A DNA stretch of 64,000 nucleotides, taken from the NCBI GenBank assembly GCA_021775915.1, contig JAJFGW010000035.1, positions 17,911-81,910 on the forward strand. Direction: 5' to 3'. The position numbers and the translations under genes were made by a program. Source of the DNA: Alphaproteobacteria bacterium (lineage in GTDB: Bacteria > Pseudomonadota > Alphaproteobacteria > Micavibrionales > Micavibrionaceae). The stretch's first letter is position 1; every line of letters begins with the position of its first letter. Below are positions 5,675 to 29,209 of this stretch, one piece after another. The notes beneath the pieces were generated by a model, which was not told the DNA's origin, did not search any database, and worked only from the letters and a program-made list of their open reading frames with translations.

Positions 5675-6676
5675 TTATTCCACGATAATAATAGCGCTTT
5701 CATTGCCCGAAGAAATCAGACGCGCCAAAAGCTCATCCGCTTGCTGCACACTGGCAACAGGGCCAAGGCGTACGCGGTAGAATTGCCGCCCGTTCACAAT
5801 CGCCGGATAGACATTGGCTTGCGCGAATTGTTGTAATTTACCGCTCAATTTATAGGCATTTTCCTGCACCGTAAAGGCTCCGGCCTGCACAAAAATATCC
5901 GTTTTTATCACAGGCATTTCGGTCACAATAGGATCGGGATAAAAAGCCCCGCTGCGGGTGTGGCCTGGTATGGCCTGCCTAACACCTGTGTTGACTGAAG
6001 TCGGGCTTATCAAAGCTTCACGCATGACAGGCGGCGGCTGCGCTCCTGCTGCCGGTTCCACCTGATAGGCTTGTGATGAAGTTGCAGAAGCCACCTTCAC
6101 AGGCTGCGGGCGCAACGACGGCATTTTACCACCTCTGTTTAGAGCAACCTCATAGCCATTCGTATCCTTACCGCTTTTCGCTGCACGGGCGATCTCCATG
6201 CTTTCCTGTTTCAGCACTTCAAGGCGGACTTTTGCTGTTCCTTGATCTTTGAATCCCAGCAGCTCAGCGCTCCGTTTTGATAAATCAATGATACGGCCTC
6301 TCTTATAAGGCCCCCGGTCATTCACCCGGACAATCAAAGAGCGGCCGTTATCCAGATTTGTAACCCGCACAAGCGAGGGCATTTGCAACGTCTTATGGGC
6401 TGCCGTTAGCTCATACATATCAAATGTTTCACCATTGGCTGTTTTTTTACCGTGGAATTGCGGGCCATACCATGAGGCTATCCCTGTTTCCACAAGATCG
6501 TAGCTTTCCTGCGGATGATAGCGCTTACCGTTGATTTTATAGGCGTTACCAACCTTAAATGTGCCTTGGCTTTTAGAAGATGGTAGGGCCTGCTTTGTCA
6601 CATGGGAAGCAAGCTGCAGCTCGGTACAGGCGGTCAGGCACAACAAAAGCGCTAAGGTATAAAAGATACGGTTCAT
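5675..6676 (-). CDS. rlpA: Septal ring lytic transglycosylase RlpA (lipoprotein, SPOR domain)
   Basis: GIASWYGPQFHGKKTANGE double-psi barrel motif, lipobox LTAC, C-terminal SPOR-like region. Confidence 0.92.
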   Translation of the reverse strand: MNRIFYTLALLLCLTACTELQLASHVTKQALPSSKSQGTFKVGNAYKINGKRYHPQESYDLVETGIASWYGPQFHGKKTANGETFDMYELTAAHKTLQMPSLVRVTNLDNGRSLIVRVNDRGPYKRGRIIDLSKRSAELLGFKDQGTAKVRLEVLKQESMEIARAAKSGKDTNGYEVALNRGGKMPSLRPQPVKVASATSSQAYQVEPAAGAQPPPVMREALISPTSVNTGVRQAIPGHTRSGAFYPDPIVTEMPVIKTDIFVQAGAFTVQENAYKLSGKLQQFAQANVYPAIVNGRQFYRVRLGPVASVQQADELLARLISSGNESAIIIVE

Positions 6677-27305: not shown

Positions 27306-27962
27306 GTGTATGTAATGTCTGGGAACACCGCACTAAAAATAAAAAAAGAGGCGCCAAGCCTTAAAATAGAAAAACAATATGACGGCGCCGTTTGCGGTGT
27401 TGATGAGGTTGGGCGTGGGCCTTTGGCCGGGCCGGTTTTGGCGTCTTGCGTTTATATCCCTAAAACTATGTATCGCCGCCGTTTCCTGCATGAAATCAAT
27501 GACAGTAAAAAACTTAACGTCAAAAAGCGCGAAGCCTTATTCTTACAAATCAGAAAGCATTGCAGCTTTGGCATTGGCATGGCCTCTCACGAAGAAGTGG
27601 ATACATTAAATATTCACCACGCAACATTACTCGCCATGCGCCGCGCGTATCTAAATTTACAGAATGATTTTGAGGTGCGTCCCGAAATGGCGCTCATAGA
27701 CGGAAAATTCACCCCAGACCTTTCATGCTCCTGCAAAGCCATCATAAAGGGCGACAGTATTTCAACCTCCATCGCCGCTGCGTCCATCATGGCTAAAGTC
27801 ACGCGCGACCGAATTATGGAGCGCCTGCATCAGGAACACCCCTATTATGGTTGGGATCATAACTCCGGCTACGGCACGCCGGAGCATTTGAACGGAATCA
27901 AGGCCCATGGCATCACGCCTTATCACCGCCAAAGCTTCGCGCCTGTAAAAAACGCGCTGTAA
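27306..27962 (+). CDS. rnhB: Ribonuclease HII
   Basis: CGVDEVGRGPLAGPVLASCVY, DSKKL, AAASIMAKVTRDR. Confidence 0.96.
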   Translation: MYVMSGNTALKIKKEAPSLKIEKQYDGAVCGVDEVGRGPLAGPVLASCVYIPKTMYRRRFLHEINDSKKLNVKKREALFLQIRKHCSFGIGMASHEEVDTLNIHHATLLAMRRAYLNLQNDFEVRPEMALIDGKFTPDLSCSCKAIIKGDSISTSIAAASIMAKVTRDRIMERLHQEHPYYGWDHNSGYGTPEHLNGIKAHGITPYHRQSFAPVKNAL

Positions 27963-27971
27963 AATCTTCGG

Positions 27972-28067
27972 ACTCAATATAGACTCCTTTCTTAAGACTC
28001 AAGCACAACATATTGACTCCACACAAAGAATCGCAATTTTTTTCTTGACCGCGAATCACCTTTGACT
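27972..28067 (+). promoter_or_regulatory. Cluster of seven GANTC (CcrM target) sites upstream of ccrM
   Basis: GANTC at 27972, 27983, 27997, 28016, 28027, 28052, 28063 (five GACTC, two GAATC). Confidence 0.85.
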
Positions 28068-28072
28068 CATGA

Positions 28073-29209
<1,137 letters not shown>

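Follow-up and report, generated by a model that had tools for sequence, protein, structure and literature searches.

Analysis of the region upstream of ccrM revealed that the predicted core promoter of this gene includes methylation sites of its own product. One GANTC is positioned just behind the -35 hexamer and another is fused to the -10 hexamer, with additional sites further upstream. The sites, their geometry, the promoter-like elements, their conservation and the specificity of the promoter for ccrM were read directly from genome sequences. We consider it probable that the ccrM promoter acts as an autoregulatory switch set by its methylation state, most likely with net negative feedback. 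A methylation-responsive autoregulatory ccrM promoter had been proposed in an earlier sequence-only reading of this DNA, and the conservation described below lends this proposal good support.

The window, i.e., the whole stretch of 64,000 nucleotides that was analyzed, carries rnhB (positions 27306 to 27962, plus strand; Pfam RNase_HII) followed by ccrM (28103 to 29209, plus strand; start codon at 28103), and this synteny is kept in most relatives. The predicted CcrM protein, a DNA adenine methyltransferase for GANTC, contains the Pfam domains N6_N4_Mtase and RAMA and shows 56 to 82% identity to orthologues of the same order, which confirms the gene assignment of the sequence-only reading. A sequence scan of the window detected seven GANTC sites within 98 bp of the gap between the two genes (27971 to 28068), starting at 27971, 27982, 27996, 28015, 28028, 28053, and 28064, with successive spacings of 11, 14, 19, 13, 25, and 11 bp. 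All seven had been recognized before, at coordinates that were 1 bp off. They had been described as three pairs spaced by 11 bp, which holds for two pairs but not for the middle one (28015/28028), whose sites are 13 bp apart.

The window as a whole is poor in GANTC, with 116 sites observed versus 206 expected. In a sample of 399,796 bp of the host genome, composed of the window and 335,796 bp from 20 contigs, the background was 1.86 sites per kb, and no other 96-bp stretch contained more than four sites. According to a Poisson estimate, about 1.5e-4 clusters like that of ccrM would be expected genome-wide. A comparison with other upstream regions, proposed as a check along with the claim of strong enrichment, agreed with that claim: among the 362 ORF upstream regions scanned in the same sample, that of ccrM had the highest count (seven), and the runner-up had three. 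The second-densest cluster of the 400-kb sample (L301; G000:C8, approximately 6232 to 6273) comprises four sites in 96 bp, with TTGACgaggtGATTCgcatatGATTC, and is located upstream of a DivIC/FtsB-like septum gene. It is possibly a second methylation-controlled promoter.

Inspection of the sequence between 28045 and 28073 revealed a putative sigma70-type promoter consisting of TTGAC, a 17-bp spacer, and CATGAT. It was the only sigma70-like site found between 27700 and 28400, where about one is expected by chance. The -35 hexamer TTGACC occupies positions 28045 to 28050 and the -10 hexamer CATGAT positions 28068 to 28073, both on the plus strand, as are the GANTC sites listed below. GANTC site 1 (GAATC; 28053 to 28057) lies in the spacer at -50 from the ATG. 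GANTC site 2 (GACTC; 28064 to 28068) lies at -39, and the -10 hexamer starts with its last C. At the end of the -10 hexamer (28071 to 28075), the window has GATGT where most relatives have GATTC and has lost this third site. Further upstream, two sites with conserved positions (-88, 28015 to 28019; -75, 28028 to 28032) and three additional ones (-132, 27971 to 27975; -121, 27982 to 27986; -107, 27996 to 28000) were located. The ccrM transcription start is predicted about 7 nt downstream of the -10 hexamer. A perfect DnaA box, TGTGGATAA, covers 28081 to 28089 at the predicted start; as a conserved partner it was rejected, being present in only 3 of 54 ccrM upstream regions of the order, that of the window included. 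In several families (L201, L204, L209, L211, L245, L258, and L270), the end of the -10 element and the start codon are only about 7 nt apart, which suggests that the ccrM mRNA is leaderless there.

Conservation within the order Micavibrionales was studied in 54 usable ccrM upstream regions from relatives. The 140 bp preceding ccrM contained on average 5.1 GANTC sites, versus 0.22 per 140 bp elsewhere in the same loci. Sites recurred at -88 (about -86 to -89 in many relatives), -75 (about -73 to -76), -50, -39, and often -32, whereas those of the window at -132, -121, and -107 did not. The conserved spacings, 13 bp between -88 and -75 and 11 bp between -50 and -39, are anchored on the -35/-10 promoter. 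Measured from TTGAC, a GANTC was found at +8 in 40/54 regions (site 1), at +19 in 40/54 (site 2), and at +26 in 31/54 (site 3, usually TGATTCG in the relatives and absent from the window). Beyond the promoter elements, little flanking conservation was observed. Examination of the relatives for 11-bp phasing, another check proposed earlier, showed that the three-pair layout is not kept and that the sites anchored on -35 and -10 are kept instead. The helically phased, cooperatively bound pairs envisaged in the sequence-only reading were consequently abandoned as a functional unit: the middle pair has the wrong spacing, and neither the 27971/27982 pair nor the site at 27996 is conserved in position even within the genus.

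The pattern conserved in the order can be written as TTGAC-N3-GANTC-N6-GANTC, in which the -10 hexamer begins with the C of the final GANTC. Among 147 genomes of the order, 100 carried it, with roughly one occurrence each, and a reversed control pattern gave almost no matches in the same genomes. At 29 of the 30 loci fetched, ccrM was found just downstream. A search of 58 relatives with TTGAC-N14-GANTCANNNT yielded 40 matches at ccrM by coordinate matching, the others being scattered at one to two per genome. The TTGAC/GANTC pattern identifies ccrM promoters from sequence alone. At site 1, GA and TC are fixed, and the N base varies in the order (A in 23, G in 8, C in 7, and T in 2) as well as in the class (A13, G14, C17, and T6). 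Since the N base is free, selection would be for recognition by CcrM and not for the sequence of another factor, pointing to site 1 being under selection for methylation.

Class-wide, TTGAC-N14-GANTC was detected upstream of ccrM in 52 of 126 genomes, a figure that, like all class figures, counts genomes and not independent events. When the gap of 14 was replaced by neighboring gaps of 10 to 13 or 15 to 20, the 126 upstream regions gave 0 to 6 matches, and shuffled upstream regions gave about 0.1 and at most 3. The implied -10 element reads CANNNT in 52/52 of the matching regions. Because the A and the T lie outside the search pattern, this provides independent support for a real promoter. The longer pattern TTGAC-N3-GANTC-N6-GANTC was present in 63 of 395 genomes of the class, and 22 of the 26 loci outside the order were located at ccrM. 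In other parts of the class, the 11 bp between the sites of the last pair (-50/-39) shrink to 10 or 9 bp, whereas the site linked to the -10 element stays in place. With gaps of 13 to 15 allowed, the -10-fused GANTC was found in 39 of 78 families; about half of the families lack it, and it is thus not universal at ccrM. Several lineages with small or AT-rich genomes (e.g., L262, L266, and L288) carry a ccrM gene with no GANTC in the 130 bp upstream. In L268 (G355; 220 to 360), a 15-bp tandem repeat containing GATTC follows the ccrM promoter, apparently inside an N-terminal extension of ccrM.

In the mechanism that we propose, CcrM would place m6A where RNA polymerase contacts the ccrM promoter, whose activity would then differ between the fully methylated, hemimethylated, and unmethylated states of the DNA. 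The hemimethylated promoter would fire after passage of the replication fork, and the rising amount of CcrM would then remethylate the sites and quiet the promoter. Where GcrA is encoded, as in the host genome, the sites are probably read by sigma70-bound GcrA as well. The ccrM gene of four Micavibrionales genomes is located at 63 to 84% of the distance between dnaA and the point opposite to it on the chromosome and is therefore replicated late; this fits fork-timed expression and does not hold across the class. The weakest step of the mechanism is its negative sign, i.e., repression by full methylation, which we regard as the most likely one. It is favored because the feedback loop must stop and because promoters controlled by Dam are a precedent for methylation-sensed transcription. 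The enrichment of YGAKTCK at sites 1 and 3 fits activation by GcrA, possibly with a positive sign, equally well. For Caulobacter, a review links hemimethylation of two sites in the ccrM promoter to increased expression (PMC10073500), which also favors the negative sign, and the methylation state was considered to "most probably" control ccrM (PMC3973325).

The part played by GcrA has to be weighed against this feedback. The main alternative, conceivable if rather unlikely, is that GcrA on sigma70 RNA polymerase recognizes methylated GANTC and stimulates ccrM as a core GcrA target, in a positive or S-phase-timed loop. GcrA is encoded in the host genome (PF07750 at G000:C31:89524-89943) and is present in 56 of 58 relatives. 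Site 1 of the window (CGAATCA; TGATTCG on the other strand) matches YGAKTCK inside the -35/-10 region, and in the order this motif is enriched at site 1 (20/40) and site 3 (26/29) over the background (124/627). According to a comparison across 13 orders, ccrM probably belongs to the core targets of GcrA outside the Caulobacterales (PMC7987155), and mutation of the site cripples GcrA-dependent promoters with GANTC in Caulobacter (PMC3667746). However, site 2, the most conserved of the sites, never matches YGAKTCK in the order (0/40), and the architecture occurs at a similar frequency whether or not GcrA is present. Among CcrM-bearing genomes, the -10-fused GANTC was found in 14 of the 23 that lacked a GcrA match versus 44 of the 103 that had one (Fisher p 0.16), and the presence of GcrA was rejected as a predictor of promoter architecture. 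A profile search at E <= 1, by which GcrA was detected in control genomes, failed to recover a credible GcrA from the majority of these 14 genomes. Those without it include four of family f138, three of f117, and the single-contig genome G211; for another of the 14, G348, GcrA is present in close relatives, and this genome may be incomplete. Since the promoter is kept without detectable GcrA, GcrA is not the sole reason that the sites are kept, and the sites must be sensed directly or read by another factor. A GcrA/CtrA-like reader, as suggested in the sequence-only reading, is thus plausible in the case of GcrA, which is not necessary; CtrA is considered below.

Two further explanations dispense with a switch. 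CcrM or another DNA-binding factor, e.g., a MucR-like shield, might bind the cluster, which would then be a protein-binding array or a set of hypomethylated sites. There are multiple sites upstream of the promoter, and MucR shields some GANTC sites of alphaproteobacteria (PMC5172544); yet it is the sites tied to -35 and -10 that are fixed in position, the upstream ones being poorly fixed, and the scarcity of conserved flanks outside the promoter elements also makes such an array improbable. That the cluster is incidental, a product of intergenic GANTC enrichment and shared ancestry, is hardly credible. The intergenic DNA of alphaproteobacteria with CcrM is indeed enriched in GANTC (PMC3973325), but only one upstream region of the 400-kb sample has more than three sites, and the offsets are fixed across 39 families despite diverged surroundings, with shuffled sequences near zero. 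These conservation data contradict an incidental origin.

A bolder form of the methylation feedback, which we put forward tentatively, is a thermostat independent of GcrA: m6A in the -10-fused site would be sensed by sigma70 RNA polymerase itself, or by CcrM in competition with the polymerase, and the level and timing of CcrM would be set in this way across the Alphaproteobacteria. Such a device would be ancient, and GcrA and CtrA would be later additions in some lineages.

Searching for a CtrA-type box (TTAA-N7-TTAA) upstream of ccrM in the window yielded no match. As a general activator, CtrA was rejected because the box is present in only 3 of 54 ccrM upstream regions of the order. A box at one fixed distance from the -10 GANTC was rejected as well, with 16 scattered matches in 395 genomes, of which only G377:C34 is at a known ccrM locus. 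In the Caulobacter-like family f16, the TTAA-N7-TTAA box takes the place of the TTGAC -35 element and is followed by GACTCatGATTC (L181 and L182) or GACTCATTAT (L215). The GACTCatGATTC element matches the -10 module of the Micavibrionales ccrM promoter. In these three loci of one family, the -10/GANTC module appears to outlast a change of activator.

CcrM timing has a central role in the cell cycle of Alphaproteobacteria and is usually explained by CtrA and GcrA. A promoter that carries the enzyme's own site at -10 and is kept without detectable GcrA puts direct methylation feedback on a concrete and testable footing, and indicates that such a layer may predate the Caulobacter wiring. Methylation control of ccrM was already suspected in Caulobacter, and the Micavibrionales geometry is a variant. 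No description of the TTGAC/GANTC geometry was found in the open-access literature, most subscription papers being outside this search.

Comparison with known systems revealed the closest likeness to the ccrM promoter of Caulobacter crescentus, which also combines GANTC sites with probable methylation control (PMC3973325, PMC10073500). That promoter is activated by CtrA and has two GANTC sites, whereas in the Micavibrionales window a TTGAC -35 element replaces the CtrA box and seven sites are present. The GcrA/CcrM-regulated sigma70 promoters of mipZ, ctrA (P1), ftsN, and podJ likewise have GANTC within or near -10/-35, and at such promoters GcrA reads m6A (PMC3667746, PMC4287350). They have one or two sites, in contrast to the multisite array and -10-fused GANTC of ccrM, and, unlike them, the ccrM promoter persists in lineages without detectable GcrA. 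Judging from titles cited in PMC3874152, the restriction-modification genes of CfrBI and LlaDII are controlled by methylation of their own promoters, and the IS10 transposase promoter is Dam controlled (Roberts 1985, as cited in PMC10073500). Like the predicted ccrM switch, these are methylase or fork-coupled promoters sensed via promoter methylation. CfrBI, LlaDII, and IS10 are mobile or defense elements, whereas ccrM encodes an orphan cell cycle methylase conserved across a bacterial class.
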